21,908 nt of DNA, taken from a virus. Numbering within the stretch: the first letter of the stretch is position 1; the number at the start of each line of letters is the position of its first letter. The notes under the pieces were generated by a model, which searched no databases, had not been told where the DNA came from, and was given only the letters and a program-made list of their open reading frames with translations. Positions 61 through 17,184 of this stretch are shown in pieces. The translations under genes and the position numbers were made by a program. Location: positions 1 through 21,908 of the IMG/VR virus record IMGVR_UViG_3300033154_000176, one strand, 5' to 3'.

Positions 61-2219
61 TTCGACGAGCGAGAACACACCGGCCTATACGCAATCTCGA
101 GCGAGAACGCGACCGCCTCCGCGTATCGGCCCGCCGGGCTCACGCCCGCGACCTCGAGATCCCCAAGCCGCGGAACTCCCGCCGCCGCCGGCTATGCGAG
201 AACGACCCCGGCGAGTTCCTATCGACCTATCTCCCGAAGATCTTCTACAACCCATTCACCGCGACCCACGACTCCATGATCGCCGCCTTTGTCGACTGCA
301 TATCCTCGGCCGGATGGCAAGCCGTCGCCGGCCCCCGCGGAACCGGAAAGACGATGATCGCCCTGGGCCTGACCTTGTGGGCCCTCCTCTACGGTCTGCG
401 CCGCTTCATCGTAATCGTCGCGGCCAACGCCGCCGACGCGGCCCGCAACATGGGGAACATAAAGGCCGAGCTCGAGCGAAACCCCCTCCTCGGCGCCGAC
501 TTCCCGGAGGTCTGCGTCCCGATCCGGGCCCTCGAGGGGGCCAACCAGCGGGCCAACCTCCAGACCGTCGCCGGCCGCCGGACCCACCTCAAGTGGACCG
601 GCGACCTGATCGTCCTGCCGACGATCCGCAAGCCGGGCGGCCAGGCCTACCCCGCCTCGGGCGCGATCGTGACCTCCCGCGGGATCGACGCGGCGATCCG
701 CGGGCTCAACCACGAAGGCCGCCGCCCGGACATGGGCCTTATCGACGACTGCGAAACCCGCGAGTCGGCCGCCTCGGCCAAGCAGACCGGCGACCGCGAG
801 GACATCATCGACGCCGACATCGTCAACCTCGCCGGCCAGGATCAGCCGATGGCCCTCCTGTACCTCTGCACGTTATGGACCCGCGACTGCCTGGCCGACC
901 GGTTCACCGACCCGACGCGAAAGCCCCCCTGGACCGGCCGCCGGCACAAACTCCTCGAGCGCGAGCCGACGCGGGCCGACCTCTGGGACAAGTACATCGA
1001 ACTCCGCCAGCGCGACCAGATCGCCGGCGACAAGACCGGCCGGACCGCGCACCGATTCCTCCTCGACAACCTCGCCGACATGGACGCCGGGGCCCGGGTA
1101 TCCAACCTCCACCGGTATTACGGCAAGGTCCTGCCCGACGGATCGCAGTTGCAGATATCGACCCTGCAATTCTGTTACGACATCATCTCCGACACCGGAT
1201 GGATCCACTTCAACACCGAATACCAGAACATCCCCCCGGCCGAGGACGCACCGGAAACCGCCGGGATTGACAGGACGGCCGTAATGACCTCGACCAACGG
1301 CCGGCCCCGCGGGATCCTCCCGGCCGCGACGGATTTCCTCGTCTCCGGGATCGACGTCCACGGCCGATTCCTCATCTGGGCCGTCGCCGCCTGGTCGGCC
1401 GGGGCCGGCCACCTCGTCGACTACGGCGTAACCCGCGTCCACTCGCCGCTCGAGGGGGCCCTCACCGACCCGGCCAACGCCGCGCCCCTGGCCGACGCGA
1501 TCGTCGGGGCACTCGTCGAGGTCCGCGACCTGTTCTCGGCCGGATGGCCGCTCGAGAACACCGGCGAGGTCCGCCACCTGGACCTCGGCCTCGTCGATTC
1601 CGGATACCAGCCCCAGGCCGTCTACGCATTCTGCCGGACCGGCCCCCGGGGCCTGTACCGCCCGGCCAAGGGATTCGGGACCGCCAGCGGCCAGGCGCGA
1701 TATCGCCCGCCGGCCCGCAAGGCCGCCGGCCGACGACTCGGTCGCAACTGGTTTGCCACCCGCCAGGCCTCGCCGCGGATCTGGCTCTACAACGTCAACG
1801 CCGACCACTTCAAGGAGTACGTTCACACCGGATTCCTCCTGCCGCGCGACGACGGGGCCGCCCGCCCGGGATCGCTCTCGGTTTTCGGATCCGACCCGAT
1901 CGCACACCGCGAGTACGCCGACCAGATCACCGCCGAGATACTGACGACCGTGTACCGCGGCGGGAAGGAACTGACGTACTGGGATCGCCGGCGGAAATCG
2001 AATCACTACCTCGACGCCACCGCCCTGACCGTCGCGGCGTCGGCGATCCTCGGGATGGCGCAGATATCCAGTGGCGCCCGGGCCGCCGCCGAGCGACCCG
2101 CGCGGGGCCCGTCGGCCGCCAAGGGCGACACGACAACGACGCGCGAAACCGCAAGCGGTCCGGCGGCGAAACGGAAGCGCCGCCGCCCGAAAATGTCCGA
2201 ACGGATCCGCAGACGATGA
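57..2219 (+). CDS. terL: Phage terminase large subunit, lambda GpA type (TerL)
   Basis: The 720-residue product is the DNA packaging motor: an ATPase that pumps DNA into the prohead and a nuclease that cuts the concatemer. Walker A is GPRGTGKT at residues 92-99. A Walker B-like segment, DMGLIDD followed by CET, is at about 225-234. The C-terminal RNase H-like nuclease shows GIDVHG (D433), LVDSGY (D514) followed by AVYAFCR, and HYLDAT (D653). The IDVHG and VDSGY-AVY pattern is that of the GpA family rather than the T4/HK97 type. The basic N-terminus (1-47) may be extra. The first in-frame ATG after an upstream stop at 24-26 is 57; no strong ribosome site is visible and coupling to the previous gene is likely. 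Residues 692-701, TTTTRETASG, are encoded by a family A palindromic repeat that sits just before a very basic tail (AAKRKRRRPK). The stop overlaps ATG 2216. Confidence 0.93.
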   Translation: MIRRARTHRPIRNLERERDRLRVSARRAHARDLEIPKPRNSRRRRLCENDPGEFLSTYLPKIFYNPFTATHDSMIAAFVDCISSAGWQAVAGPRGTGKTMIALGLTLWALLYGLRRFIVIVAANAADAARNMGNIKAELERNPLLGADFPEVCVPIRALEGANQRANLQTVAGRRTHLKWTGDLIVLPTIRKPGGQAYPASGAIVTSRGIDAAIRGLNHEGRRPDMGLIDDCETRESAASAKQTGDREDIIDADIVNLAGQDQPMALLYLCTLWTRDCLADRFTDPTRKPPWTGRRHKLLEREPTRADLWDKYIELRQRDQIAGDKTGRTAHRFLLDNLADMDAGARVSNLHRYYGKVLPDGSQLQISTLQFCYDIISDTGWIHFNTEYQNIPPAEDAPETAGIDRTAVMTSTNGRPRGILPAATDFLVSGIDVHGRFLIWAVAAWSAGAGHLVDYGVTRVHSPLEGALTDPANAAPLADAIVGALVEVRDLFSAGWPLENTGEVRHLDLGLVDSGYQPQAVYAFCRTGPRGLYRPAKGFGTASGQARYRPPARKAAGRRLGRNWFATRQASPRIWLYNVNADHFKEYVHTGFLLPRDDGAARPGSLSVFGSDPIAHREYADQITAEILTTVYRGGKELTYWDRRRKSNHYLDATALTVAASAILGMAQISSGARAAAERPARGPSAAKGDTTTTRETASGPAAKRKRRRPKMSERIRRR
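2130..2162 (+). repeat. Family A palindromic repeat inside the TerL gene
   Basis: This copy spans ACGACAACGACGCGC, then GAAACCGCAAGCGGT, in frame with TerL and reads TTTTRETASG near the C-terminus, beyond the last nuclease motif. The same bases recur at 3590, 6072, 13734 and 16911, and in reverse orientation at 3794-3920, 5979, 13468 and 13639. It lies in the dispensable tail of the protein, as expected for a tolerated insertion. Confidence 0.85.
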
Positions 2220-2230
2220 AAGGAAAAACG

Positions 2231-2500
2231 ATGGACAAACCGACACCGAGCACAATCGCCCTCGAAATCATCCGAGAAGTTGAAACAGCCGAGGCCAACT
2301 ATCCGCCCCTAAACTACCCGCACGAAGCATACGCCGTGATCCTCGAGGAGGTCGACGAGTATTGGGAGGAGGTCCGCAAGAAACAGAGCGCCCGCGTCAT
2401 GGTCGACATGAGGACCGAACTTATCCATATCGCCGCGATGGCGTTCCGCGCGATCCGTGACACGATCGACATACCGGCCGGAACAAGAATCCACGTATGA
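2231..2500 (+). CDS. MazG-like all-alpha nucleotide pyrophosphohydrolase
   Basis: The 89-residue protein reads HEAYAVILEEVDEYWEEV at about 35-52 and then MRTELIHIAAMAFRAI at about 62-77. This is the two-helix pattern (EExDE then ELxxIAAMA) of small phage MazG-like NTP pyrophosphohydrolases. By family knowledge they hydrolyse nucleoside triphosphates to monophosphate and pyrophosphate using Mg2+ held by the Glu/Asp residues. The second helix has ELIH where many members have ExxD, so activity is not certain. I chose ATG 2231 because AAAGGA at 2219-2224 lies 6 bases upstream; ATG 2216, overlapping the TerL stop, would add five residues (MKGKT). The stop overlaps the next ATG at 2497. It could alter nucleotide pools or the host stringent response during infection, but that role is inferred. 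Confidence 0.75.
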   Translation: MDKPTPSTIALEIIREVETAEANYPPLNYPHEAYAVILEEVDEYWEEVRKKQSARVMVDMRTELIHIAAMAFRAIRDTIDIPAGTRIHV

Positions 2501-3111
2501 CCCCCCGCCCCATGACAAAGGCCAAACGTCGAAAAGCGAAGGGCAAGGCCCCGAAGCCGAAGCCGATCGACGAGGCGATTATCGACGAGATCGTCCTGAT
2601 ACTGGTATCCGGCCTGCAACCGGCCGCGGTCGTCGAGACGGTTCGGACAGAAACCGGCCTCCCGCCCGACCGGACCGACGAGGCGATCGCCGAGGCCAGA
2701 CTCCGGATCGCCCGGGCCGCCGACTACGCCCGCGACGCCGTCCTCGGCGAATCGATCACGCGACTCGACGCCCTGTATAACCAGGCGATCGTCGACAAGG
2801 AAACGACGACCGCCCTGGCCGCCCTGAAAGAGAAAAACCGACTCCTCGGCCTCGGCCCGGCCGTGACAGACGACCCGGGCGCCGACGACCCGGCCGACGC
2901 CGACGATCCAGACGCCCGCCGCGTGATCGAGGACGACGAGCTCGCCGCGGTCGTCGGGTCGATCGAGAGGCATATCGACCCGTTGAAACTGACCGACAAC
3001 ATGAACCACACCGACGCCGACGCCGTCCGCCTGGCCGGCCAGGAGATCAAACGCCTCCGCCGCCAGGTAAAACGACTCCAGCGCAAGGCGAAGAAAACGA
3101 AAACGACATGA
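2497..3111 (+). CDS. Terminase small subunit-like DNA-binding protein
   Basis: The 204-residue product starts with a very basic stretch, followed at 24-70 by helices that could form a helix-turn-helix (a region containing LVSGLQPAAVVETVRTET). At about 84-118 is RLDALYNQAIVDKETTTALA then LKEKNRLLGLG, the pattern common near the middle of phage small terminases (a helical dimerisation segment ending in LLGL). A long acidic, Asp-rich segment (123-150) and a basic C-terminal coiled coil (about 176-204) follow. Small terminases recognise the packaging site and load TerL. Here the gene is downstream of TerL and separated from it by a MazG-like gene, unlike the usual order. The start overlaps the previous stop as ATGA; ATG 2512 is an alternative. 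A generic DNA-binding or scaffolding role is also possible. Confidence 0.6.
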   Translation: MTPRPMTKAKRRKAKGKAPKPKPIDEAIIDEIVLILVSGLQPAAVVETVRTETGLPPDRTDEAIAEARLRIARAADYARDAVLGESITRLDALYNQAIVDKETTTALAALKEKNRLLGLGPAVTDDPGADDPADADDPDARRVIEDDELAAVVGSIERHIDPLKLTDNMNHTDADAVRLAGQEIKRLRRQVKRLQRKAKKTKTT

Positions 3112-3140
3112 TCCGCAGATTACGCAGATGCCACAGATGA
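3109..3140. repeat. Short 9-base periodic repeat between genes
   Basis: Just after the preceding stop the sequence shows ATTACGCAG, then ATGCCACAG, then ATGAAAGGA, a 9-base periodicity of ATNNCRCAG units. It ends at the ribosome binding site of the next gene and may be a worn remnant of a longer repeat array. It contains an in-frame upstream ATG (3128) that I consider less likely as the start of the next gene. Confidence 0.4.
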
Positions 3141-3151
3141 AAGGAACGAGA

Positions 3152-3565: not shown

Positions 3566-3580
3566 GAAAGGCCGCCACGG

Positions 3581-3793
3581 ATGGCGAAGAAAACGACGAC
3601 GACGCGCGAAACCGCAAGCGGAAACGACCACGCCGCCGAAAAGGGCGACGACGTCGGCCTCAAGTGCCCGCGATGCGCCTGCAGACACTTCTACACCGTC
3701 AACACCAAGCGACTCAGGGGATGGATCCGCCGGCGGAAGGTCTGCCGAAATTGCGGACGCAAGATCCGCACCCGGGAGCGACTCGACCCGTAA
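3581..3793 (+). CDS. Small zinc-ribbon protein with repeat-encoded N-terminus
   Basis: The 70-residue protein has CPRC at 29-32 and CRNCG at 55-59, separated by a basic segment with WIRRRKV. This is a zinc ribbon like that at the N-terminus of NrdR and of many small phage proteins, where the two CxxC knuckles bind one Zn2+. It probably binds nucleic acid; no target is visible. Residues 4-14 (KTTTTRETASG) come from a family A repeat, so the repeat begins only three codons after the start. ATG 3581 follows GAGAAAGG (3564-3571) at 9 bases. The ribbon domain starts after residue 25, so the inserted peptide is outside the folded part. It is the last gene of the first unit, before a 400-base non-coding gap. 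Confidence 0.75.
   Translation: MAKKTTTTRETASGNDHAAEKGDDVGLKCPRCACRHFYTVNTKRLRGWIRRRKVCRNCGRKIRTRERLDP
3590..3622 (+). repeat. Family A repeat in the zinc-ribbon gene
   Basis: This copy occupies codons 4-14 of the zinc-ribbon gene and is read in the same frame (TTTTRETASG) as in TerL. One base differs from the TerL copy in the ACGACGACG part, giving ACGACGACGACGCGC. The surrounding protein has no other sign of damage. Confidence 0.85.
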
Positions 3794-3996
3794 CCGCTTG
3801 CGGTTTCGCGCGTCGTAACGGCCGAGGCACTCGGCCGTCCGCTTGCGGTTTCGCGCGTCGTAACGGCCGAGGCACTCGGCCGTCCGCTTGCGGTTTCGCG
3901 CGTCGTTGTCGTGTTCACCCGATCGGACAGGACGGCCCGCCTGATGGCACACGCAAGGAACAAACCAGCCCGACCGGACGGGTACCGCAAGCGGTC
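3794..3996 (-). repeat. Tandem array of family A repeats, 45-bp unit
   Basis: Units start at 3794, 3839 and 3884. The first two are identical 45-mers: CCGCTTGCGGTTTCGCGCG, then TCGTAACG, then the hairpin GGCCGAGGCACTCGGCC and T. The third changes after CGTCGT into the longer arm (TGTCGTGTTCACCC) and an interior that resembles the interior of the complete element at 13639-13772 (shared GGACAGGACGGCCCG). The opposite end is a shortened arm, ACCGCAAGCGGTCC, at about 3983-3996, lacking about 22 bases present in intact arms. The array is non-coding, oriented opposite to the in-frame copies in TerL and the zinc-ribbon gene, and starts directly at the stop codon of that gene. Confidence 0.85.
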
Positions 3997-4040
3997 CCTG
4001 TCCCTCGACCCCTAGATATAGCCCCGCGAAACGGAAATAC

Positions 4041-4404: not shown

Positions 4405-5957
4405 AACACCGATCGAAAAAGCCCGGATACCTCCGACGAATCGGCCGGGCCCTCGTCGGCCGCGGATCGCCGGGCCGGCCGATCGTCAACCGGATATACC
4501 GCCGCCCGCCCCCGGGCTCGCGGGCCTACTTCGACGCCGCCGACTCGAACAGATACACCGACGCCCATTTCGCCGACGCCTCGGCCCTGGACATCGCCTC
4601 GATCGTCCGCGGCGACATCGCGACCCTCCGCAAACGCTGCCGGTACGAGTACGCCAACAACACCTACGCTCGCGGGATCACCGACACCCTGGCAAACGAC
4701 GTGATCGGGCCCGGGCCGCGCCTACAGATCACGACCGGCCCGGACGACGCCGCCGAGACGGCCGCCGGCCGGATCGAGGACGATTTCCGCGCATGGTCGG
4801 AAAAATGCGACGCCGACGCGAAGGCCAACCTCGGCCAGATCCTCGCCCTGGCCGAGAAACAGTGCGCCCACACCGGCGAGGCCTTCATCGTCCTGGTAAA
4901 GGACCCCGACGCCGGCCGCCGCGAGGTATCGCTCCGCCTCCGCCTCGTCGAGGCCGACCGCGTCACGACGCCATACGCCTGGTTCGGCGACAAGAACACC
5001 CGCGACGGGATCCAGTTCGACGACGACGGACGGCCGGTCGCGTACTACATCCTCAAGCAGCACCCCGGCGATACGTCCGTCCTGGGCCTGGGAAACGATT
5101 ATGAGCTCGTTGCCGCCGCTAACGTGATCCACATCTACGATCCCGACCGCCCGGGCCAGACCCGCGGGATCCCGCGCCTCGCCGCGAGCCTCATTCCGCT
5201 CGCGCAACTCCGCCGGTATTCCCTCGCGACGGTCCGCGCCGCCGAGCGCGCGGCGTCGGTTTCGATGGTCGTTCACACATACGCCTCGGACCTCGACGTC
5301 GATGACTACGAGGCAAACGACGAGATCGAGATCCCCCACGACTCGGCCGTCACCCTGCCGCACGGATACACGGCGACGGGATTCGACGCAAAGCAGCCCA
5401 CCGCGACGTACCAGTCGTTCAAGCACGAAATGCTCAAAGAGGCCGCCCGGCCGTTCCACATGCCGTACAACATCGCCGCGGCCGACTCGTCGAAGCACAA
5501 TTACGCCTCGGGCCGACTCGACGACCAGATTTACCTCCGATTCGTCCTGACCCGCCAGGCCAACCGGTCCCGCGACTGCGATCGCATATTCGCCGCCTGG
5601 TACGCCGAATATCGCCTCGCGGCCCGCGTGATCCCGATCCGCGGGGCCCCGGCGATCGCGACCGACTGGTACTGGCCCGGCCGCCAGCACGTCGACCCGG
5701 CCAAGGAGGCCAACGCCCAGCGGATCCGCCTGAACTCACTCACCACGACCCTCCGGGCCGAGTACGCCCGCCAGGGCCTCGACTACCGCCGCGAGATCCA
5801 ACAGATCGCCGACGAGCGGACCCTCCTGGCCGACCTGGGCCTCACGATCGAGGACGCCGCCCCGTCGATCGCCGCCGCGGCCGCCGACGAGGCCCTCGCC
5901 GACGCCGTCGAGGATGCAAAGGAAACGAACGATGAAAACGAAACCGTCGCCGCGTAG
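4401..5957 (+). CDS. Portal protein, lambda gpB family
   Basis: The 518-residue protein has the lambda-type portal signature: ATLRKRCRYEYANNTYARGI at about 74-93, then TLANDVIGPGPRLQI, and later AYILK-like and HIYDPDRPGQTRGIPRLA (about 247-264). This is followed by RAAERAASVSMVV and by a C-terminal region (PIRGAPAIATDWYWPGRQHV, then VDPAKEANAQ) typical of this family. Portals form the dodecameric ring at one head vertex through which DNA enters and leaves and to which the terminase and connector dock. Length is normal for the family. It starts inside the gpW stop codon and ends inside the next gene (26-base overlap with ATG 5932), so head genes are translationally coupled. Confidence 0.92.
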   Translation: MKHRSKKPGYLRRIGRALVGRGSPGRPIVNRIYRRPPPGSRAYFDAADSNRYTDAHFADASALDIASIVRGDIATLRKRCRYEYANNTYARGITDTLANDVIGPGPRLQITTGPDDAAETAAGRIEDDFRAWSEKCDADAKANLGQILALAEKQCAHTGEAFIVLVKDPDAGRREVSLRLRLVEADRVTTPYAWFGDKNTRDGIQFDDDGRPVAYYILKQHPGDTSVLGLGNDYELVAAANVIHIYDPDRPGQTRGIPRLAASLIPLAQLRRYSLATVRAAERAASVSMVVHTYASDLDVDDYEANDEIEIPHDSAVTLPHGYTATGFDAKQPTATYQSFKHEMLKEAARPFHMPYNIAAADSSKHNYASGRLDDQIYLRFVLTRQANRSRDCDRIFAAWYAEYRLAARVIPIRGAPAIATDWYWPGRQHVDPAKEANAQRIRLNSLTTTLRAEYARQGLDYRREIQQIADERTLLADLGLTIEDAAPSIAAAAADEALADAVEDAKETNDENETVAA

Positions 5958-8238
5958 CGGCCGAGGCACTCGGCCGCCCGCTTGCGGTTTAGCGAGTCGT
6001 TGCCGTTCCGCCCGTAGTGCGTGCTTGCCCTCTCATGGCCCATCGTCAACGACACCCAGCCCGACCGCAGAGGTGAAAACGACAACGACGCGCGAAACCG
6101 CAAGCGGTCCGTTACAGACCCGCGCAGAGCCCGCGACCGCCGACCGCCTCACCGTCCGCGAGTTCTCCGTCCGCGCCGCGACCCTCGACGTCGAGGCCCG
6201 CACCGTCGAGGCCGTGATCGCCACCGAGGCCCCCGTCCGCGTATACGACTGGCAACGCGAGGAAATGGTCGAGGAGGTCCTCCTGATGGCCGGCGTCCAA
6301 CTGCCGGACTCGAGACAGGTCCCGCTCCTGGACGCGCACGGCCGGTGGAGCATCGACCAGCAACTCGGATCGACCCGCGACCTCCGCGTCGAGGCCGACC
6401 GCCTTATCGGCGTCAACACGTTCGCGCGGACCGACGGGGGCGACGCCGCCCTGGCCCTCGTTCGCGACGGACACCTCACCGACAACTCGGTCGGATACCG
6501 CGTATCGGCCTCCATGTATATCGAACCCGGCGACACGGCCGAGGTCGAGGGCCAATCGTTCACCGCCCGCCAGTTACCCCTCCGCGTATCGACCCGGTGG
6601 ACGATCCACGAAAACTCCGTCTGCCCGATCGGGGCCGACCCCAACGCCACGAACCGCGAGGCCCCGCCCTCGCGCCAGCCCGACAACCCGCGCACGACAA
6701 CGCAACGCAGAAAGGACACGCAAATGGACCCCTTCAAGAAATGGTTACAGGCCCGAGGCCTCGATTACGATACCCTCGACGAGGCCCAGCGGACGGCCCT
6801 CCAGGCCGATTTCGACGCCGAACAGGCCCGCGACCAGGCCGATCCGGGCGACCCGCCCCTCACCCGGGCCGATATCGCCGGCGTCGTCAACGACACGCTC
6901 GACGCCCGCGCGACCCGGGCCGTCGAGACCCGACGCGACGAGATCCGCGCCCTGGCCGAACTGACCGGCGTCGCCGACGAGGTCCGCGACGAGGCGATCG
7001 CCTCCGACCGGTCCGTCGCCGACGTTCGCACGTCGTTCACCGAGATCCTCCGCGGATCCCGGGCCAACGTGCCCGGCGCCCCGGCCGTCCACGTCCGCGA
7101 GGGGGCCGACGAGTCGACCCGGGAAATGATCGAGGCCGCGATCCTCTGCCGCGGAAACGGCCTGGCCGACGCCGCGATCGAACAGGGCCGCTACACCGCC
7201 GAGACGATCGAACGCGGCCGCCGCACCCTCCGCGGGATCACGCTCCTGGGCCTCTGCGCCCACGCCCTGCGCCTCGAGGGCCGCGCCGCGCCGTCCAACC
7301 CCGACGAGCTGATCCGCGCCGCGGTATCCACCGGATCGTTTGCCAACGTGACGTCAAACGTCGCCGGCGTCTCGGCGATGGTCGGCGCCGCGTCGGTCAA
7401 ACAGACCTGGCGGTCCTGGTGCTCGATCGGCGACGTGTCCAACTTCCAGGCGAATAAGCTCGTCCGATGCGACATCGGCGGGAACCTCGCCACCGTCGGG
7501 GCCGACGGGAAGCTCGAGCACGTCAATATCGACGACACCGGCGAGAGCGTCACCGCCGCGACGCTCGGGAATATCCTGGTCCTGAATCGCCAGGTGATCC
7601 GCGACGATCGGATCGGGATCCTCACCAAGGCCCCCCGCGACCTCGGCCGCGCGGGGATCCAGTCGATCGCCCACACGGTGTACACGCTGCTGCTGACCGG
7701 CGAGACGGCGACCCTGGACGACGGTGTCGCGGTATTCCACGCGACACCCGGTAACCTGATTACCCAGGTCCTCGGCCCGGACGGACTCGAGGCCGCCGCC
7801 GCCGTCCTGCACAAGGCCACGACCGACACCGGCCTGCCGCGCGACCTCGAGCCGGCCGTCCTGCTCTGCGCGCCGGAGAACTGGGGCGACGCATACTCGA
7901 CGGTAAAGACGCCGAACGTCGTCGTCGTCGGCGTCGGATCGTCCGCTGCGGTCGACCGCGGGATCCACGCCTGGGGCGACGGGAGCATCGACCCCGTAAG
8001 CGAGTCGCGCCTCAGCAACGCGACCTACACCGGATACTCGGCGACCGACTGGTATCTGATGGCCTCCCCGGCCCAGGCCGACAACGTCTGCGTCGCGTTC
8101 CTGGACGGCCAGCAGAATCCGACCGTCCGCCAGGTATCGCCCGGGGCCGGGATCCTCGGCGTGGCCCTCGAGGTGTTCATCGACTTCGGCGCCGCCTTTG
8201 CCGACCGCGCCGGGATGATCAAGGCCGCGGAGTCCTAG
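5932..8238 (+). CDS. Prohead protease / major capsid protein fusion
   Basis: The 768-residue polyprotein joins a maturation protease and the capsid protein. The protease part (about 60-240) reads LLDAHGRWS with candidate His136, and LVRDGHLTDNSVGYRV with candidate Ser186, the S78-type prohead protease pattern. A helical scaffold-like stretch follows from Met265. The Mu gpT-like capsid part starts near residue 410, with TWRSWCSIGDVSNFQANKL, LNRQVIRDD and LGRAGIQSIAHTVYTLLL. Fusions of this kind are known in other phages. ATG 5932 has AAAGGA at 5918-5923; ATG 5914 is an alternative. Residues 8-60 are almost entirely translated family A repeat (RSGRGTRPPACG, later KTTTTRETASG) and are unlike any protease N-terminus. 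An internal ATG at 6724 with its own ribosome site could give a free 504-residue capsid form. Confidence 0.88.
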   Translation: MKTKPSPRSGRGTRPPACGLASRCRSARSACLPSHGPSSTTPSPTAEVKTTTTRETASGPLQTRAEPATADRLTVREFSVRAATLDVEARTVEAVIATEAPVRVYDWQREEMVEEVLLMAGVQLPDSRQVPLLDAHGRWSIDQQLGSTRDLRVEADRLIGVNTFARTDGGDAALALVRDGHLTDNSVGYRVSASMYIEPGDTAEVEGQSFTARQLPLRVSTRWTIHENSVCPIGADPNATNREAPPSRQPDNPRTTTQRRKDTQMDPFKKWLQARGLDYDTLDEAQRTALQADFDAEQARDQADPGDPPLTRADIAGVVNDTLDARATRAVETRRDEIRALAELTGVADEVRDEAIASDRSVADVRTSFTEILRGSRANVPGAPAVHVREGADESTREMIEAAILCRGNGLADAAIEQGRYTAETIERGRRTLRGITLLGLCAHALRLEGRAAPSNPDELIRAAVSTGSFANVTSNVAGVSAMVGAASVKQTWRSWCSIGDVSNFQANKLVRCDIGGNLATVGADGKLEHVNIDDTGESVTAATLGNILVLNRQVIRDDRIGILTKAPRDLGRAGIQSIAHTVYTLLLTGETATLDDGVAVFHATPGNLITQVLGPDGLEAAAAVLHKATTDTGLPRDLEPAVLLCAPENWGDAYSTVKTPNVVVVGVGSSAAVDRGIHAWGDGSIDPVSESRLSNATYTGYSATDWYLMASPAQADNVCVAFLDGQQNPTVRQVSPGAGILGVALEVFIDFGAAFADRAGMIKAAES
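5957..6108. repeat. Family A element at the N-terminus of the capsid fusion gene
   Basis: The hairpin GGCCGAGGCACTCGGCC (about 5960-5976) is followed by a left arm starting CCGCTTGCGG at 5979 (with TTTAGCGAG instead of TTTCGCGCG). A right arm at about 6071-6108 ends GAAACCGCAAGCGGTCC. The interior has CCAGCCCGACCG, as in the other long copies. The whole unit is open in the capsid frame and forms codons 8-60, between the start codon and the protease domain. Confidence 0.8.
6709..6726 (+). promoter_or_regulatory. Internal ribosome site and start for the free capsid protein
   Basis: AGAAAGGA at 6709-6716 is followed after 7 bases by ATG 6724 in the same frame as the protease-capsid fusion. The resulting protein would start MDPFKKWLQARGLDY. 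This is exactly where the protease domain ends and the scaffold-like helices begin, so a second, more abundant capsid product from the same gene is plausible. Confidence 0.6.
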
Positions 8239-8257
8239 GCGGACAAGAAACGTGCTA

Positions 8258-8306
8258 AGCCGCAAGCGGCGGCCGATCCGCCCCCGGCGGATCGCCGCTT
8301 GCGGCT
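8258..8306. repeat. Family B hairpin, copy 1
   Basis: Outer arms AGCCGCAAGCGGC (8258-8270) and GCCGCTTGCGGCT (8294-8306) are perfect complements. Inner arms GATCCGCC (8275-8282) and GGCGGATC (8286-8293) also pair, leaving a 4-base bulge and a 3-base loop. It is preceded by GTGCTA and followed by TCACAGCGA, both also found around copy 2 at 13034-13082. It lies between the capsid fusion and the decoration gene and could act as an mRNA stabiliser or terminator, though no T-run follows. Confidence 0.85.
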
Positions 8307-8352
8307 TCACAGCGAACACGAAGAAACAACGCACAACCGAAAGGATACGAAA

Positions 8353-10493: not shown

Positions 10494-12089
10494 ATGGCGA
10501 CATTACTCGATATCGTGAAAAAGGACTCGACCGACCGGAGCGTCACGATCCGGATCATCGACTCGACCGACGGGACGCCCGAAACCGGCGTCGTATTCAA
10601 CACCGCCGGGATCGACCTCTGGTATCGACGCGAGGGCGCCACGAAAACGAGTATCACCGAGGCCGACCTGACGACGCCGGCCCTCGACGACGCCCACGCC
10701 GACGGCGGATTTCTTCACATCAGCGACGGCGAGTATCGCCTCGACCTGCCCGACGCCGCCTGCGCCACCGCCGCGAATCATGTAGACGTCGGCGGGACCG
10801 TCACCGGAATGGTCGTTATCGGCGGCCGGATCCGCCTGGTCGATTACGACCCCGAGGCCGCCCTGGCGACCGCCGCCGCCCTGACCACCGTCGATACCGT
10901 CGTCGACGCGATAAAGGCCGTCACCGACAACCTCCCCAACTCCGGGGCCCTGAGCGACCTGGCGACCGCCGCGGCCCTGACCACCGTCGACACCGTCGTC
11001 GACGCGATAAAGGCCGTCACCGACGCCCTGCCCGACGCCGGGGCCCTCAACGACCTGGCCGCGATCCTGACCGACACCGGGACGACCCTGCCGGCGACCC
11101 TGGCCACGATCCAGGCCGTCACCGACGCCCTGCCCGACGCCGGGGCCCTCAACGACCTGGCCGCGATCCTGACGGACACCGGGACGACCCTGCCGGCGAC
11201 CCTGGCCGCGATCCTGGCCGGGACCGTCCTCGTCTCGACGTCGATCGGCAGCGACGGCCGATCGACGACATCCTGCCGACTCGAGGACGCCAGCGACAAC
11301 GACAACGCATATGTCGGGATGCGCGTTATCCTCGACGACGACGCCGGCGACGGGGAATATGTATCCAGGACGATCACCGACTACGCCGCCAACAACAAGG
11401 TCCTAACCTGGGCGCCGGCGATCACCGAGGACGCCGAGGATGGCGGCAATATCTACATCATCCCAGGCGACACGACGATCAACGTCACCGCCGACGCGAT
11501 CAGGGCCGTCACCGACGCCCTGCCCGACGCCGGGGCCCTTAACGACCTGGCCGCGATCCTGACCGACACCGGCACGACCCTGCCGGCGACCCTGGCCGCG
11601 ATCCAGGCCGTCACCGACGCCCTGCCCGACGCCGGGGCCCTCAACGACCTGGCCGCGATCCTGACCGACACGGGCACGACCCTCCCGGCGACCCTCGCGA
11701 ACCTGGCGACCGCCGCGGCCCTGGCGACCGTCGACACGGTAGTCGACGCGATAAAGGCCGTGACGGACGTCTCGCTCTACACCGCCCGCGTCGACCTGAG
11801 CATCGACGAGGCCAACAGCCAGGACGAGTACACGATCCAGTGGTTTAAGAACGGAATCCCGGTAACCAGCGGGATCACCAGCCCCACCATCCAGGTAATC
11901 AAACGCGCCGACGGCACGGACCTCGTCGCCGAGGACACCCCGACCGAGATCGGATCGACCGGCGCGTACAAGCACGACGAAACCTCCGGCCGCACGACCG
12001 CCGGCCAGGCCGTCGTCGTCGTCGTCGGCGCCACGATCGACGCCGCCGGCCGGACATGGCGAGAACCCATCAGCCGAGACAGCGAATGA
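10494..12089 (+). CDS. Repeat-rich fibre or collar protein
   Basis: The 531-residue protein has three parts. Residues 1-120 form an N-terminal beta domain (VTIRIIDSTDGTPETGV, then GEYRLDLPDAACA and VVIGGRIRLVDYD), common at the base of phage fibres and adaptors. Residues about 125-420 hold two kinds of tandem repeats, DTVVDAIKAVTD and AVTDALPDAGALNDL-AAILTDTGTTLPATLAAI, with a hydrophobic spacing that suggests a trimeric coiled coil. A beta insert (about 240-325) splits the repeats. Residues about 425-531 form a C-terminal beta domain with YTIQWFKNGIPVTSG. The location between two connector copies suggests neck whiskers or head fibres rather than the tail tip, but a receptor-binding fibre cannot be excluded. 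Start ATG 10494 is one base after the previous stop. Confidence 0.65.
   Translation: MATLLDIVKKDSTDRSVTIRIIDSTDGTPETGVVFNTAGIDLWYRREGATKTSITEADLTTPALDDAHADGGFLHISDGEYRLDLPDAACATAANHVDVGGTVTGMVVIGGRIRLVDYDPEAALATAAALTTVDTVVDAIKAVTDNLPNSGALSDLATAAALTTVDTVVDAIKAVTDALPDAGALNDLAAILTDTGTTLPATLATIQAVTDALPDAGALNDLAAILTDTGTTLPATLAAILAGTVLVSTSIGSDGRSTTSCRLEDASDNDNAYVGMRVILDDDAGDGEYVSRTITDYAANNKVLTWAPAITEDAEDGGNIYIIPGDTTINVTADAIRAVTDALPDAGALNDLAAILTDTGTTLPATLAAIQAVTDALPDAGALNDLAAILTDTGTTLPATLANLATAAALATVDTVVDAIKAVTDVSLYTARVDLSIDEANSQDEYTIQWFKNGIPVTSGITSPTIQVIKRADGTDLVAEDTPTEIGSTGAYKHDETSGRTTAGQAVVVVVGATIDAAGRTWREPISRDSE
10866..11745 (+). repeat. Coding tandem repeats of the fibre-like gene
   Basis: A 96-bp unit begins at 10866 and 10962 (codons for ATAAALTTVDTVVDAIKAV) with a partial third at 11706. 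A 102-bp unit (34 residues, AVTDALPDAGALNDLAAILT and so on) begins at 11013, 11115, 11505 and 11607. The copies at 11115 and 11505 are separated by a non-repeat domain of about 290 bases. Near-identity at DNA level, including synonymous positions, points to recent duplication or gene conversion. Confidence 0.85.
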
Positions 12090-12092
12090 GAC

Positions 12093-12194
12093 GATTTCGG
12101 ATTTCGGATTTCGGATTGCGGATTGAACGGCAACGGCCCGGCCGCCGCGCGGAATCCGCAATCCGCAATCCCGTATCCGAAAAGTCCGCAATCC
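12093..12194. repeat. Heptad palindrome C1 (GATTTCG type)
   Basis: The left arm is GATTTCG three times then GATTGCG and GATTG. The middle is AACGGCAACGGCCCGGCCG. The right arm is GAATCCG, CAATCCG, CAATCCC, GTATCCG and CGCAATCC. Arms are complementary at 7-base periodicity. It fills the gap between the fibre-like gene and connector copy 2, leaving only the ribosome-site hairpin. Confidence 0.85.
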
Positions 12195-13023: not shown

Positions 13024-13033
13024 CAACGTGCTA

Positions 13034-13082
13034 AGCCGCAAGCGGCGCCGATCCCGGCCCGCCGGGATCGCCGCTTGCGGCT
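13034..13082. repeat. Family B hairpin, copy 2
   Basis: The outer arms AGCCGCAAGCGGC (13034-13046) and GCCGCTTGCGGCT (13070-13082) are identical to copy 1. The inner arms are GATCCCGG (13050-13057) and CCGGGATC (13062-13069), different from copy 1 but again perfectly complementary. TCACAGCGA follows and GTGCTA precedes, as in copy 1. It lies between the beta-rich virion gene and the small membrane protein gene. Confidence 0.88.
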
Positions 13083-13098
13083 TCACAGCGAGACAATC

Positions 13099-13542
13099 AT
13101 GGCCGAGAGAACGAACAACGGACGAAACGGACGCAACGGGAAAATCGCCTGGCGGATCGTCGAGGTACTCGTCGCGATCCTCGCCGCCGTCGCGACCGCC
13201 GGCGTCGGATGGACCGTCAACGAGATCGGCGACCTCAGCGACGAACAGGCCGCCGCGACGACGAAGCTCGAGATCCTCCGCCAGTGGAAAACCGAATACG
13301 CGCCATGCGCGGCCGACCTGATACGGACGGTAAACGCCCAGGCGACAAAGCTCGCCGTGATCGAGGCCGACCTGAAACACGTCCGCGCGACGACCGACCA
13401 CCTGAAAGACGAGCTCGCCGACATACAGCGACGTCTCTCGGCCCCCGCGTCCGCGTCGCCGTCCGAACCGCTTGCGGTTTCGCGCGTCGTCGCCGTTTTC
13501 ACCCCCTCGACCGATTCGGCCGTTCCGAAGGACAACCCATGA
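13099..13542 (+). CDS. Small membrane protein with coiled coil, possible holin or i-spanin
   Basis: The 147-residue protein has a basic, Asn/Gly-rich N-terminus, one membrane segment at about 17-40 (WRIVEVLVAILAAVATAGVG), and then a long helical, probably coiled-coil region (about 45-115, with KLAVIEADLKHVRATTDHLK). One N-terminal membrane segment plus a coiled coil is the layout of inner-membrane spanins and of some holins. The C-terminus from about residue 123 (EPLAVSRVVAVFTPS) is encoded by a family A repeat in reverse orientation, so the original stop was probably near there. ATG 13099 is preferred to TTG 13075, which lies inside repeat DNA. The stop overlaps the next ATG (13539) as ATGA. 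Confidence 0.6.
   Translation: MAERTNNGRNGRNGKIAWRIVEVLVAILAAVATAGVGWTVNEIGDLSDEQAAATTKLEILRQWKTEYAPCAADLIRTVNAQATKLAVIEADLKHVRATTDHLKDELADIQRRLSAPASASPSEPLAVSRVVAVFTPSTDSAVPKDNP
13468..13504 (-). repeat. Family A arm at the 3' end of the membrane-protein gene
   Basis: CCGCTTGCGG, TTTCGCGCGTCGTCGCC and GTTTTCACC form one arm in the orientation opposite to the TerL copy. It is read in the frame giving PLAVSRVVAVFT, different from the TTTTRETASG frame, and supplies the last quarter of the protein. The partner arm is absent here, so the copy is truncated. Confidence 0.8.
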
Positions 13543-14093
13543 GAAACATCCCCGTCCGATACGTCCTGCTCACCGCCGCGATCCTCGCGATGATCGTCGC
13601 CGCCCTGGTTATGGCGACGGGTTGCCCGTTCGGCGACGGGACCGCTCGCGGTTTCGCGCGTCGTAGTCGTTCTCACCCGAGCGGACAGGACGGCCCGTCC
13701 GACAGCGCGACGACGACCCAGCCGTCCGGGACGGGTGAAAACGACAACGACGCGCGAAACCGCAAGCGGTCCGACGATCCGGCCGACGCGATCGACGACG
13801 CGGCGCCGTCGATCCTGACGATCCTCGGAGCCCTTCTGGGCCTCCCGGCCGTCGGCGTCGGCGCCGCGGCCGCCTGGCGGACGATCCGCCCGGCCCGGGC
13901 GATCACGAACCTCGTCCACTCGATCCAGGCCGGCCGGGCCGAGATAAAGGCCCACGCAGCGGCCGGGAAGTACGCCGACGGCGGCGATCCCCTCGAGGAT
14001 TTCGACATGACCGTCGGCGTCCTCCAGGACGACGCGACCGAGAAACTCGTCCGGACCGTCAAGCGCAAGGGAAAGATCCGGAGCATTACCTGA
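13539..14093 (+). CDS. Probable lipoprotein with second membrane segment and inserted repeat
   Basis: The 184-residue protein starts with a signal-like segment VLLTAAILAMIVAALVMATG followed by Cys29 (ATGC lipobox-like). A second hydrophobic segment lies at 91-113 (SILTILGALLGLPAVGVGAA). Its C-terminal part has DFDMTVGVLQDDATEKLVR. Residues 34-78 (TARGFARRSRSHPSGQ and ENDNDARNRKRS) are the translation of a complete 134-bp family A element that lies between the signal and the second segment. AAGGA at 13528-13532 is a good ribosome site. Paired with the preceding membrane protein, it may be an outer-membrane spanin or a holin-like protein; the double membrane character argues for a holin-like fusion. 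Function is not established. Confidence 0.55.
   Translation: MRNIPVRYVLLTAAILAMIVAALVMATGCPFGDGTARGFARRSRSHPSGQDGPSDSATTTQPSGTGENDNDARNRKRSDDPADAIDDAAPSILTILGALLGLPAVGVGAAAAWRTIRPARAITNLVHSIQAGRAEIKAHAAAGKYADGGDPLEDFDMTVGVLQDDATEKLVRTVKRKGKIRSIT
13639..13772. repeat. Complete family A element with 41-bp terminal inverted repeats
   Basis: The left end 13639-13679 starts GGACCGCTCGCGG and ends TCTCACCCG. The right end 13732-13772 starts CGGGTGAAAACG and ends CGCAAGCGGTCC. By eye 38 of 41 positions pair as inverted repeats. The 52-base interior contains GCGGACAGGACGGCCCG, also found in the copy near 3945. It is in frame in the lipoprotein gene and adds 45 residues without a stop. Confidence 0.88.
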
Positions 14094-14096
14094 CCA

Positions 14097-14594
14097 ATGG
14101 CAAACGACGCCAATAATCCGATCTGGGGCCCGGTCGCAAACGCCCGGACCCTCCTGTCGAACTCCTCGACGTTCCAGACGCTCGTCGGCGAGGCCACCGC
14201 CGGGGCCGCCGCCGCGCACATATACACGCCCGGGATCACCCCCGGGGATATCGCCGCCGCCCGCCCGTTCGCGGTCGTCGACCAGGGATCCGAGCGCGAA
14301 ATGGTCCGCAACTCGACGGACGGATTCACCGACGCCGGGAGTATCTTCTTCCTGCTCGAGGCCGACGTCGCCGATGGGAACCTCGGCCAGACCAAGGCGA
14401 AATGGGAGGCCGCGCACAAGGCGTTTCTCGGGGCACTCGGCGACATCATCGCCGACATGATCGCCACGTCGCACGGGCCCGGATACCTCTACATGACCGG
14501 ATTCCGCCTCATATTCGGACCCCAGCGGTCCGAGGACACCGGCGAGGGCGATTTCTATCAAGCGATATGCGAGATCCAGTGGAGAACGGTATGA
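14097..14594 (+). CDS. Probable tail terminator / tail completion protein
   Basis: The 165-residue protein reads PVANARTLLSNSSTFQTLVG near the N-terminus, RPFAVVDQGSEREMVRNSTD at about 56-75, a strand with GSIFFLLEADV, a helix KWEAAHKAFLGALGDII, and a final strand region YLYMTGFRLIFGPQ and YQAICEIQWRTV. This alpha-beta plan and its place just upstream of the gp10-like and tube genes fit a tail terminator (lambda gpU-like), which caps the tube at the head end. The family match is by pattern only. ATG 14097 is 3 bases after the previous stop; a weak GGAG lies further upstream. Confidence 0.55.
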   Translation: MANDANNPIWGPVANARTLLSNSSTFQTLVGEATAGAAAAHIYTPGITPGDIAAARPFAVVDQGSEREMVRNSTDGFTDAGSIFFLLEADVADGNLGQTKAKWEAAHKAFLGALGDIIADMIATSHGPGYLYMTGFRLIFGPQRSEDTGEGDFYQAICEIQWRTV

Positions 14595-14599
14595 GATTG

Positions 14600-14699
14600 C
14601 CAATTTCCAATTTCCAATTTCCAAATGCAACCCCTCCCGGCCGGGGCGTTGTGGCCGTTGCCGTTCATTTGGAAATTGGAAATTGGATATTGGAAATGG
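14600..14699. repeat. Heptad palindrome C2 (CCAATTT type)
   Basis: The left arm is CCAATTT three times then CCAAATG (14600-14627). The right arm from 14666 is CATTTGG, AAATTGG, AAATTGG, ATATTGG, AAATGG. The middle contains GTTGTGGCCGTTGCCGTT, whose complement carries AACGGCAACGGCC as in C1. The right arm runs into the GGAG ribosome site of the next gene, so the repeat supplies part of its translation start region. Confidence 0.88.
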
Positions 14700-14709
14700 A
14701 GTCCCCCTG

Positions 14710-15189
14710 ATGCCGTACAAGGCCACGATCACATACCGCGGCGGGCCGAACGTCCTGAAGCGCGAGCTCAAGGCCGAGGTAAAGGCCGGCCTGGCCGAGG
14801 TCGGCGACCACTGGCACGGTTCGATCCTCCCGGGCCACTTCGACCGCGGGGCCGCCAACAAGTACAAGTACAAGCGCCGCAGCCGAAAGTACAACGAGCG
14901 GAAACTCCGCCGCCGCGGACACAAGATCCCACTCGTCGATACCGGCCAGATGGCCCGTATGGTAAAGCGGATGGCCCGCGTGACCTCGACGTCGAAGGGC
15001 GCCCGCGTGGCCCTCAAGGGCCCGCGATACCTCCACCAGTACCGCAAGGATTTCGGCCAGCCCGATAAGGCCGCCGAGATAATCAAGGTAACCGCGAAGG
15101 AGGCCGGCGACCTTGCCCGCCTCCTGGACGAGATCGTCACCAAGAAACTCAACGACAACAAGCAACGCGAAACCGTCAAGATAGGATAG
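14710..15189 (+). CDS. Tail completion protein, HK97 gp10 / virion morphogenesis type
   Basis: The 159-residue basic protein begins MPYKATITYRGGPNVLKREL, followed by a helix, a basic segment (KYKYKRRSRKYNERKLRRRG), IPLVDTGQMARMVKRMAR and then ARVALKGPRYLHQYRKDFG and a C-terminal helix. The VDTGQM-R motif followed by a strand and a Tyr/His-rich loop is typical of the gp10/gpG-like family, which works at the head-tail junction during tail completion. ATG 14710 follows GGAG (14698-14701) at 8 bases; the longer frame from 14683 is repeat-derived. The tube gene starts 4 bases after the stop. Confidence 0.7.
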   Translation: MPYKATITYRGGPNVLKRELKAEVKAGLAEVGDHWHGSILPGHFDRGAANKYKYKRRSRKYNERKLRRRGHKIPLVDTGQMARMVKRMARVTSTSKGARVALKGPRYLHQYRKDFGQPDKAAEIIKVTAKEAGDLARLLDEIVTKKLNDNKQRETVKIG

Positions 15190-15193
15190 AACA

Positions 15194-16030
15194 ATGGCAA
15201 TACAAGACGTATACGCCCTCCACGCGCTGCAGATCGGCACGACCGTTATCGGCCAGATGCAGGACTTCGAGGTCACCGATAACATCGAGACATTCCTCGC
15301 CGCCGACTCCGGATCGCTCTACAACCGGGCCGCCGCGGTCGACCTCGAGGACACCCGGATCACCTGCACCACCACCGCGATCGACACCGCCCTGGGGGCC
15401 GTCGGCCTCACCGGCGCCGCGATCGCCGCCGATCCGAACGACATCCACGCCTATTTCAAGAAGAAAGCACCCGGCGGAGGATTCGCGGCCGACTCCAGCC
15501 TCGTAATCACCCTCACCGCCGGGATCGTCCTGTGGCGCACATTCGCCGCCCGCGAGGGCCTGGCGGTCGTCGGCCTCGAGGTAATCGGCCTCTCGCCCGA
15601 CGGCGACAACGATCCGTACACCACCGCGACCGCCCAGGCCGACGCCGTATGCACGACCGAGGAAATGTACGTCGCCTCGGCGTCCGACCTCGGCCTCCTC
15701 GGATTTGATATCGACACCGGGATCATCGAAGGGCCCCTCCGGTCCGACGGGGAGCCCTGGTTTACCCATATCAGCCTCGATGGAATCCAGCCGACCGTCA
15801 ATCACGACTATCACACGATATCCGACCTGGGAATCGACTCCTGCGCCTCCCTCCAGGTGATCGACGTGTCCTCGGGCGGATTCCGCGGATCCTCGCCGAT
15901 CACGTTCACGTTCAACGAGGAACTGACCACGATCCGGAGCATCGGCGGCGCCCCGGCCGTGCAGAGGAAGGTAACCACCCCCGTATTCGACGGGACAAAC
16001 TTGCCGATCGCAATCACCGGACTCTCATAG
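15194..16030 (+). CDS. Major tail tube protein (probable)
   Basis: The 278-residue protein begins MAIQDVYALHALQIGTTVIG and is beta-rich throughout. It has repeated strands such as TFLAADSGSLYNRAAAVDLE, RITCTTTAIDTALGAVGL, LVITLTAGIVLWRTFAAREG and ITFTFNEELTTIRSIGG. Size, beta content, position after the completion gene and before the chaperone and tape measure all fit the tube subunit that stacks around the tape measure. No single signature motif was recognised, so this is an order-based call. AGGAT at about 15184 precedes ATG 15194. A heptad palindrome follows the stop. Confidence 0.55.
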   Translation: MAIQDVYALHALQIGTTVIGQMQDFEVTDNIETFLAADSGSLYNRAAAVDLEDTRITCTTTAIDTALGAVGLTGAAIAADPNDIHAYFKKKAPGGGFAADSSLVITLTAGIVLWRTFAAREGLAVVGLEVIGLSPDGDNDPYTTATAQADAVCTTEEMYVASASDLGLLGFDIDTGIIEGPLRSDGEPWFTHISLDGIQPTVNHDYHTISDLGIDSCASLQVIDVSSGGFRGSSPITFTFNEELTTIRSIGGAPAVQRKVTTPVFDGTNLPIAITGLS

Positions 16031-16033
16031 AAA

Positions 16034-16136
16034 GGATTACGGATTTTAGATCTTAGATTGACGATCTTAGATTTCGCGCAACGGACCGGCCGTGGCCGAT
16101 CAATCGTAAATCTACAATCTACAATCGTAAATTGAA
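16034..16136. repeat. Heptad palindrome C3 (TTAGATC/TTAGATT type)
   Basis: The left arm is TTAGATC, TTAGATT, GACGATC, TTAGATT (16045-16072). The middle has CGCAACGGACCGGCCG. The right arm is AATCGTA, AATCTAC, AATCTAC, AATCGTA, AATTGAA. A consensus ribosome site, AAAGGA, lies at 16031-16036 immediately upstream, while the next start (16139) is 2 bases downstream and has no ribosome site of its own. Confidence 0.85.
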
Positions 16137-16138
16137 TC

Positions 16139-16654
16139 ATGGCGACAGCACAGACATTAGCGGGATGCGCGATCAAGGCCTCGATCGGGGCCTCGGTCAC
16201 AAAGGCCTCGGACTTCCAGGCCATCACGCAGAAGTTCGCGCACACGATATCCGAGGCGATCGCCGCCGGGACCGGATCCGGCCAGGCCGATATCCTCTGG
16301 GCCGACGAGCGGACACTCGCGGCCGACGCGACCGAGGACCTCGACCTGGCCGGCGTCCTGACCGACGCATTCGGCGACACCGTGACGCTCGTCGACGTCA
16401 AGGCGATCCTGATCGAGAACACGTCGACGACCGCGTCGATAATCTCGGTCATGCAGGCCGCGGCGAACGGATTCGTCGGCCCGTTCGACGCCGCCTCAGA
16501 AAAGACCAACCTCGCGGCGGGATGCTTTGTCATGTACGGCAACCCCGGCGCCGGATGGGCCGTCACCGCCGGGACCGGCGACCTGATTACCTTCACCGAG
16601 GAGGCGACCCTCGAGGGGAAGTACAAGATTACGATCCTCGGCGCCTCGGCGTAG
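16139..16654 (+). CDS. Beta-rich virion protein of the tail module
   Basis: The 171-residue protein reads ISEAIAAGTGSGQADILWAD, ERTLAADATEDLDLAGVLTD, AFGDTVTLVDVKAILIENTS, then AAGCFVMYGNPGAGWAVTAG and YKITILGASA. The series GxGxGQAD-W-D-RTL-DLDLAG-L-DAFG followed by a final Y-I-I-GAS strand is a recurrent phage structural pattern, probably a beta sandwich on the virion surface. Whether it decorates the tail tube or the head is unknown. ATG 16139 comes straight after the heptad palindrome; the only good ribosome site is before it. Together with the tube gene it may represent a two-protein tube or a tube with decoration. Confidence 0.6.
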   Translation: MATAQTLAGCAIKASIGASVTKASDFQAITQKFAHTISEAIAAGTGSGQADILWADERTLAADATEDLDLAGVLTDAFGDTVTLVDVKAILIENTSTTASIISVMQAAANGFVGPFDAASEKTNLAAGCFVMYGNPGAGWAVTAGTGDLITFTEEATLEGKYKITILGASA

Positions 16655-16728
16655 GAACTGGCCCCAATGGCGAAAACGTCGACGCCTCGACGAAAGAGAT
16701 ACGACGAACATCGAAAGGATAAGGACCA

Positions 16729-17184
16729 ATGGCCCGCAAGAAAAAGACGTACCCCTGCCCGGGATGCGGAAAGGTTTACAAGCGCAAGGGCGACCTGACC
16801 AAGCACAAGAGGAAATGCGAAGCCGCAAGCGGCGCCGCCGAACCGGCCGAAGGCCGGAACGGCGCCGCTCGCGGCTTCACACCGACCGCGACGGCCGAAC
16901 CGGTCGCGGAGGTGAAAACGGCAACGACGCGCGAAACCGCAAGCGGTCGGCCGGCGACGCCGGCGGCGGACGGGAAACTCGTCTGGCAACAGTGGAACGG
17001 GCGATACGAGGCCGAGAGTCACAAGGTCCCCGGGCGGACGTACATCGTCACCCACGCGGACGGCCAGTTCATTCCCACCTACACGGGACAAAAGGCCTCC
17101 TGCCCCCTCCGCGGGATGGCCGTCGGCCTGGCCGGCCTGGCCCGGGCCGCCTGCGCGGCGATCGAACGCGACGCGGAGGCCTAG
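16729..17184 (+). CDS. C2HC zinc-finger protein with repeat-made linker
   Basis: The 151-residue protein opens with YPCPGCGKVYKRKGDLTKHK and Cys30. C10, C13, H26 and C30 form a C-x2-C-x12-H-x3-C finger like classical nucleic-acid-binding fingers. Residues 31-73 (AASGAAEPAEGRNGAARGFT, later TATTRETASG) are the translation of a family B hairpin joined to a family A arm. The C-terminal domain (81-151) reads LVWQQWNGRYEAESHKVPGR, TYIVTHADGQFIPTY, then CPLRGMAVGLAGLARAACAA; its function is unknown. GAAAGGATAAGGA lies just upstream of ATG 16729. A zinc-finger gene inside a tail operon is unusual and might serve a late regulatory or DNA-ejection role; both are speculation. Confidence 0.65.
   Translation: MARKKKTYPCPGCGKVYKRKGDLTKHKRKCEAASGAAEPAEGRNGAARGFTPTATAEPVAEVKTATTRETASGRPATPAADGKLVWQQWNGRYEAESHKVPGRTYIVTHADGQFIPTYTGQKASCPLRGMAVGLAGLARAACAAIERDAEA
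16821..16948. repeat. Compound family B and A repeat within the zinc-finger gene
   Basis: AGCCGCAAGCGGCGCC (16821-16836) pairs with GGCGCCGCTCGCGGCT (16861-16876) around an inner CCGGCC-GAA-GGCCGG hairpin. TTCACACC follows, as after the family B copies. A family A arm, GGTGAAAACGGCAACGACGC then GCGAAACCGCAAGCGGTC, is at 16911-16948. The whole stretch is in frame and links the zinc finger to the C-terminal domain. Confidence 0.85.

Follow-up and report, generated by a model that had tools for sequence, protein, structure and literature searches.

A palindromic repeat of Phycisphaerae chromosomes found in frame in packaging and capsid genes of a lambda-like phage

Repetitive extragenic palindromic (REP) sequences, together with the bacterial interspersed mosaic elements (BIMEs) and REPINs of the GTAG and CGTC super-families (Di Nocera 2013), are located mostly in intergenic regions between convergent or unidirectional genes; some copies lie in open reading frames (ORFs), and members have been reported in Planctomycetes (PMC3733652). 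The recB gene of two Xanthomonas species carries different REPs at about the same site, CGTC REPs lack a REP-associated tyrosine transposase (RAYT) as well, and RPE-4 and RPE-6 of the Rickettsia palindromic elements (RPEs) are CGTC-tagged REPs (PMC3733652). The enterobacterial RU-1, RU-2 and RU-3 sequences (Delihas 2007) are 100-170 bp in length, resemble miniature inverted-repeat transposable elements (MITEs), possess open frames and are kept in frame within genes (PMC2759123). In-frame intragenic REPs and RPEs of chromosomes (PMC3733652) and in-frame small mobile sequences of enterobacteria (PMC2759123) are thus established. Here we describe a palindromic repeat, termed family A, in the IMG/VR virus record IMGVR_UViG_3300033154_000176, a 21.9-kb stretch (21,908 nucleotides, hereafter the window) whose genes include those for the head and tail of a lambda-like tailed phage. 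The novelty lies in the setting: the carrier is a phage, with copies in genes including those for TerL and the capsid protease, and it has the repeat in common with an uncultured planctomycete lineage. The literature searched, which covered few subscription journals, contained no report of an in-frame palindromic repeat that a phage has in its packaging, capsid or lipoprotein genes and shares with a host lineage.

Like REPs, family A consists of palindromic units of 20-40 nucleotides that are dispersed, often arranged as inverted pairs, and located mostly in intergenic regions 3' of genes; unlike REPs, it is present in a phage genome, in packaging, capsid and lipoprotein genes. It is similar to RPEs in being an in-frame, translated palindrome in unrelated genes that is tolerated at termini and linkers, but it differs from them in sequence and lineage and in occurring in a virus. 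By contrast with RU-1, RU-2 and RU-3, which reside in bacterial chromosomes, it has a different sequence and host and is found in a phage. All of the evidence presented below is sequence-based. On this basis, the family A core belongs to a dispersed chromosomal repeat of Phycisphaerae, and the phage relatives compared do not possess it.

In-frame copies in the phage genome

The 23-nt core of family A, ACGACGCGCGAAACCGCAAGCGG, was found 11 times in the window with at most 2 mismatches (2136, 3599, 6085, 13747 and 16924 on the plus strand; 3794, 3839, 3884, 5978, 13468 and 13642 on the minus strand), nine copies being exact. None is expected by chance, as no match appeared in 100 dinucleotide-preserving shuffles of the window, and the reversed core used as a control gave 0 matches. 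The copies are spread over six ORFs and two gene gaps, and occur as single arms (in TerL, the zinc ribbon, the membrane protein and the zinc-finger gene), inverted pairs, and a 45-nt tandem of three. The palindrome proposed in an earlier note made from the letters of the window is complete at two places, 5953-6111 (inverted pair 5978/6085, 30-nt arms, 90% complementary) and 13639-13772 (inverted pair 13642/13747, 41-nt arms, 93% complementary), while several of the other copies are single arms. The longer arm in the phage reads GGTGAAAACGRCA... (extended arm GGTGAAAACGRCAACGACGCGCGAAACCGCAAGCGGTCC), and all palindromic elements together account for ~6.5% of the window. No family in Rfam matched the hairpins, and the 134-nt element in the lipoprotein gene had no match in INPHARED phages or PLSDB plasmids.

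Each of the six genes in which the earlier note placed the repeat has a copy in an open frame. Translation confirmed that four ORFs share nearly the same peptide, TTTTRETASG in the TerL, zinc-ribbon and protease-capsid ORFs and TATTRETASG in the zinc-finger gene, and that the others are read in other frames, the lipoprotein copies as TARGFARRSRS and ENDNDARNRKRS and the membrane-protein copy as PLAVSRVVAVF. The description of these as virion genes did not survive, since only the protease-capsid fusion is structural; TerL serves packaging, and the rest encode small accessory proteins or membrane proteins. Family A is not enriched in genes but depleted: with annotated genes covering 93% of the window, only seven of the 11 copies lie wholly within genes when GTG 6073 is taken as the protease start (eight with ATG 5932), which is below the uniform expectation (P ~0.006 for at most 7 of 11). 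The core indeed has no stop codon in any of the six frames, a property that it shares with 46-49% of the contig's 28-30-nt windows; the absence of stops is therefore ordinary here, and we rejected it as a coding adaptation.

The head module runs in the order of a GpA-type TerL (PF20454), an NrdR-like zinc ribbon, a portal (PF05136, Phage_portal_2) and a protease-capsid fusion (PF25209 / phrog_4523), followed by more small genes; such a fusion is annotated in Rhodobacter phages too. For comparison we used L061 (IMGVR_UViG_3300009431_000109), which is colinear with the window at 43-71% identity in most compared proteins. The core is absent from L061 and from 12 more phage relatives in IMG/VR and Phycisphaerae genomes. 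Alignment with L061 shows that the copies at the portal/protease junction and within the TerL and zinc-finger genes are insertions that keep the frame. In TerL, GPSAA|GAAANRPPTKKPKMSER of L061 corresponds to GPSAA|KGDTTTTRETASG|PAAKRKRRRPKMSER in the window, the 13 codons KGDTTTTRETASG being a single family A arm in the C-terminal tail (2121-2159, plus strand; exact core 2136-2158). This insert falls within a tail of low predicted confidence (pLDDT) in the AlphaFold model (residues 668-720), although the model is weak past residue 515 and supports the tail location only loosely. At the portal/protease junction, where the two genes overlap by 17 nt in L061, a full palindrome occupies 5953-6111 (arms 5978-6007 and 6078-6107), its 159 nt being equal to 53 codons; MQPPHRPSP|IQTR of L061 is here MKTKPSP|53 open codons|LQTR. 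Should translation start at ATG 5932, which matches the start in the relative, the entire 159-nt insert would be translated, and residues 1-71 of the product have a pLDDT of ~30 (AlphaFold). A start at GTG 6073, which lies inside the repeat, would instead leave the 5978 copy intergenic and only the start-codon region within the repeat. In the C2H2 zinc-finger gene (16729-17184), a half-element (16891-16948, plus strand), AEVKTATTRETASG, is located in a linker; L061 has the homologous flanks MARxK..CPGCGK and KVPGRxY without core or hairpin, so that homology is found at both ends and not in the repeat-bearing middle.

In the lipoprotein gene (13539-14093), the full palindrome at 13639-13772 lies in the linker past the lipobox Cys, with 41-nt arms around a 52-nt loop and an RNA minimum free energy (MFE) of -94 kcal/mol. 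Its loop, DSATTTQPSGTG, resembles both the loop in L061 (DSPTTHPAADG) and loops of other window elements. The TerL, protease, lipoprotein and zinc-finger inserts are not assembly joins, as they are flanked on both sides by sequence homologous to the relative; an assembly chimera was rejected because the genes do not break off at the inserts but continue as in L061, in order as well as in sequence. The boundary is less clear-cut in the NrdR-like zinc-ribbon gene, where a single arm (3589-3622, plus strand; MAKKTTTTRETASG...; exact core 3599-3621) sits at the N-terminus: in ten relatives this insert is missing and a short tail, unrelated to it, precedes the zinc ribbon, but the tail is variable. 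The half-element at the C-terminus of the membrane protein gene 13099-13542 (13464-13523, minus strand; 57 nt, 93% complementary to 16891-16947) is not proven to be an insertion, no good homologue being available to set its boundary. Insertion at termini and linkers, as the earlier note had it, thus stands for TerL, the portal/protease junction and the zinc finger. As far as structure prediction can tell, the family A copies are placed in low-confidence tails or linkers.

Downstream of the zinc-ribbon gene, an intergenic array (3794-3997, minus strand) contains cores at 3794, 3839 and 3884 with a 45-nt period and ACGGCCGAGGCACTCGGCCGT spacers, a loop, and a partial right arm (3984-3997). With inverted family A arms bracketing it (3589-3621 and 3794-3816), the 70-aa zinc-ribbon gene could move as a unit between repeats.

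Family A in Phycisphaerae chromosomes and other viruses

When ~85,000 genomes of bacteria and archaea were scanned for the exact 23-mer, 11 stretches were returned, all from Phycisphaerae metagenome-assembled genomes (MAGs), so that the repeat does occur outside the window, where the earlier note had suggested looking for it. A 17-nt core allowing at most 1 mismatch was present in 33, 23 and 55 copies in three carrier genomes, with 0 for the reversed control, and the exact 17-mer was found in 16 of 298 genomes of the class, several of them having many copies. With MAG genes called by a simple hexamer score, 49 of 53 host copies were intergenic (21 between convergent, 16 between unidirectional and 2 between divergent genes, the others at contig ends). 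Paired copies were mostly inverted, 21 in the +- and 7 in the -+ orientation. Family A is thus a dispersed, mostly intergenic repeat of the host lineage rather than a phage element. In-frame copies exist in the host as well: a PQQ_2 protein of the genome G002 reads the core as ATTTARETASGER (TTTARETASG) in a linker that is variable across all homologues, and a second copy is in frame in another PQQ_2 protein (L029). TerL relatives are present in 89 of the 298 class genomes, and this phage family therefore lives in Phycisphaerae.

In IMG/VR, the exact 23-mer was found in no contig besides the window. A relaxed 17-nt search gave 7 contigs, among which only one phage (L084/L090) has the core as a repeat, and the remaining matches look like chance. 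In this phage, which comes from the same two metagenomes as L061 and L063, the family A 17-mer lies inside a GGCAGTT-periodic hairpin (~1084 in L084, ~1344 in L090), which combines the two repeat classes. In other Phycisphaerae-class genomes (L198-L200, L203 and L215-L217, from G141, G105 and G153), we observed a variant, GATTCGCGAAACCGCAAGCGG, whose pairs have the opposite orientation at a fixed spacing of 17-19 nt and which may be a separate REP family.

With respect to the described systems, family A is a short dispersed palindromic unit (11 phage copies, 23-55 per carrier genome, mostly inverted pairs) with an intergenic placement in the host, as REPs are. However, no unpaired GTAG or CGTC is located directly 5' of the stem in the aligned units (..ACGACGCGCG-AAACCGCAAGCGGTT), CGTC being found only far on the 3' side of the reverse strand. 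Neither did we find a RAYT flanked by the repeat: five carriers gave 39 PF01797 hits, and scanning 30 of these loci over ±1.5 kb revealed one single copy with 2 mismatches. A RAYT as driver is not supported by these sampled Y1 loci, and with neither a tag next to the stem nor a repeat-flanked RAYT found, family A cannot be filed as a REP. The parallel with RPEs drawn in the earlier note is borne out as a likeness of behaviour, in-frame insertion at termini or linkers being seen in TerL, the protease junction, the zinc finger and the host PQQ_2 gene, but not as membership. Family A is set apart from RPEs by distribution and tag, as its exact core was found only in Phycisphaerae and no CGTC directly precedes its stem. 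Of the features of MITEs, inverted arms are present, no parent transposon was found, and the empty sites are too distant for a target duplication to be scored.

Other hairpin families and shared, probably permissive sites

Further hairpins accompany family A in the window. A family B-like hairpin, GAAGCCGCAAGCGGC..GCCGCTCGCGGCTTCACA, is in frame in the zinc-finger gene (16816-16881; 22-nt arms, 91%) and was not found in L061. Family B itself (GCTAAGCCGCAAGCGGC), which resembles family A, forms intergenic hairpins at 8252-8314 (GCTAAGCCGCAAGCGGC..GCCGCTTGCGGCTTCAC) and 13028-13092, both recognised by sequence and fold. The Phycisphaerae genome G026 contains the family B core, CGCTAAGCCGCAAGCGG, as a repeat of 46 copies; once flanking bases were added, the extended pattern was at chance level and was rejected as a host repeat.

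The remaining intergenic hairpins are 7-nt-periodic and lie at 12090-12185 (GGATTTC/GGATTGC units), 14595-14699 (CCAATTT units), 16035-16137 (TTAGATC/TCTACAA units; weaker, recognised by fold), 19390-19492 (GGATTGC units) and 19886-19997 (GGTCGAA units). AACGGC..CCGG is frequent in the loops of these hairpins. They recall the TAACTGA heptamer repeats of Beggiatoaceae and Cyanobacteria, which are 7-nt periodic, dispersed and intergenic (PMC4679880); however, those are direct arrays of one heptamer, whereas the family in the window uses many heptamers in inverted hairpin arms. Of 198 genomes of the Phycisphaerae class, 29 contain dispersed copies of a GGATTGC-type 19-mer, GGATTGCGGATTGCGGATT (control 0); G046 and G161, which bear the closest TerL relatives among the genomes examined, are two of them. 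In a host homologue of PQQ_2 (L188, ~3060, reverse strand), a repeat of this type is in frame as ARNPQSAVRNPDDW, indicating that the GGATTGC-type family also enters host coding sequence.

Two linkers are occupied by unrelated repeats in different phages. In the lipoprotein, L061 carries a 7-nt-periodic hairpin (L061 17647-17786) where the window carries family A (13639-13772), and the two palindromes are unrelated. In the N-terminal tail of the zinc ribbon, L180 (from G046, ~5478-5515) has an in-frame 7-nt repeat, ESAIRNPQSAIE, versus TTTTRETASG in the window. The 7-nt repeat peptide at both shared linkers is of the IRNPQSAI type. That two unrelated peptides are found at the same linker indicates that these sites are permissive and that the peptides are not needed.

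Elsewhere in the window, a 531-aa ORF (10494-12089) contains several 102-nt direct repeats (a 34-aa unit including AVTDALPDAGALNDLAAILTDTGTTLPATLAAI) and likely encodes a tail or fibre-like protein.

Origin of the in-gene copies

We consider it probable that a selfish, REP/BIME-like palindrome of a Phycisphaerae lineage has spread to one of the phages of this class, and that the copies surviving within genes are those that preserve the frame. Its unit of ~24-40 nt would occur alone or be paired in inverted orientation around a loop of 20-110 nt. Copies may have arrived from the host chromosome, the direction being presumably from host to phage, via a transposase acting in trans or via recombination. 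They would have landed widely, after which copies that broke the frame or fell in folded domains would have been purged, leaving survivors in gaps, tails and linkers where 10-53 extra residues could be translated harmlessly. The repeat-encoded peptide most likely has no function. Several observations weigh against this reading. The carriers sampled have far fewer hairpins per kb than the phage, the true host is not among the genomes examined, and these carriers share just the ~24-nt core with the phage and not the longer arm. In addition, no transposase could be tied to family A at the 30 sampled RAYT/Y1 loci, and no target-site duplication is definable with the nearest relatives differing by 30-50% at the protein level.

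A different possibility is that one or a few copies arrived and then multiplied within the phage genome, short repeats recombining or undergoing gene conversion with one another while no transposase acted on the phage. Nine of the 11 cores are identical, distant copies share extended arms (57 nt, 93%, 13467 versus 16891), and slippage or recombination typically gives rise to tandems such as the 45-nt one at 3794-3906. However, the flanks of the copies are unrelated and homology stops at the unit, and the occurrence of single- and two-arm forms in both orientations at unrelated sites would be easier to obtain by transposition. We therefore regard spread by recombination as unlikely.

Alternatively, the hairpins could be domesticated signals, either RNA or DNA elements with a function in the phage late operon (in processing, stabilising or attenuating mRNA between genes) or packaging-related sites, with the in-gene copies forming part of the system. 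A strong hairpin is present in 10 of the 11 intergenic gaps of at least 74 nt, most of these gaps are 108-121 nt long with RNA MFEs of -29 to -70 kcal/mol, and the host copies are positioned downstream of genes, as would fit 3'-end elements. By contrast, most of the hairpins are missing in the colinear L061, where genes that are hairpin-separated in the window overlap (the portal/protease pair, and g14097/g14709, which flank the 14595-14699 hairpin and overlap by 23 nt in L061). Moreover, three sequence families are in use, the TerL and zinc-ribbon copies are single arms whose partner is not nearby or lies across a gene, and there is no Rfam match. Domestication consequently appears quite improbable. 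We give similarly little credence to a machinery, shared by Phycisphaerae phages and chromosomes, that would install hairpins at favoured gene junctions and linkers and exchange their stem sequence over time. If real, it would explain why homologous linkers (lipoprotein, zinc-ribbon N-terminus) hold family A in one phage and a 7-nt-periodic hairpin or arm in another, and why nearly every gap is a ~110-120-nt hairpin with unrelated stems. Finally, that the repeat peptide is an ancestral or functional protein part such as a shared tag is scarcely credible in spite of the same or near-same decapeptide in four ORFs, because alignment with relatives of TerL, the zinc ribbon, the protease-capsid fusion and the zinc finger, as proposed in the earlier note, showed the peptide to be missing there, in further genes the repeat is translated in different frames and from the opposite strand, and an unrelated repeat peptide is found at the same linker in other phages.

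If a chromosomal repeat has indeed spread into this phage, phages can ferry small selfish repeats between hosts. Family A could act as a sequence tag tying uncultured Phycisphaerae phages to their hosts. For TerL, the capsid protease and the small zinc proteins, homologous phage genes that have or lack inserts offer a natural test of which linkers are insertion-tolerant.

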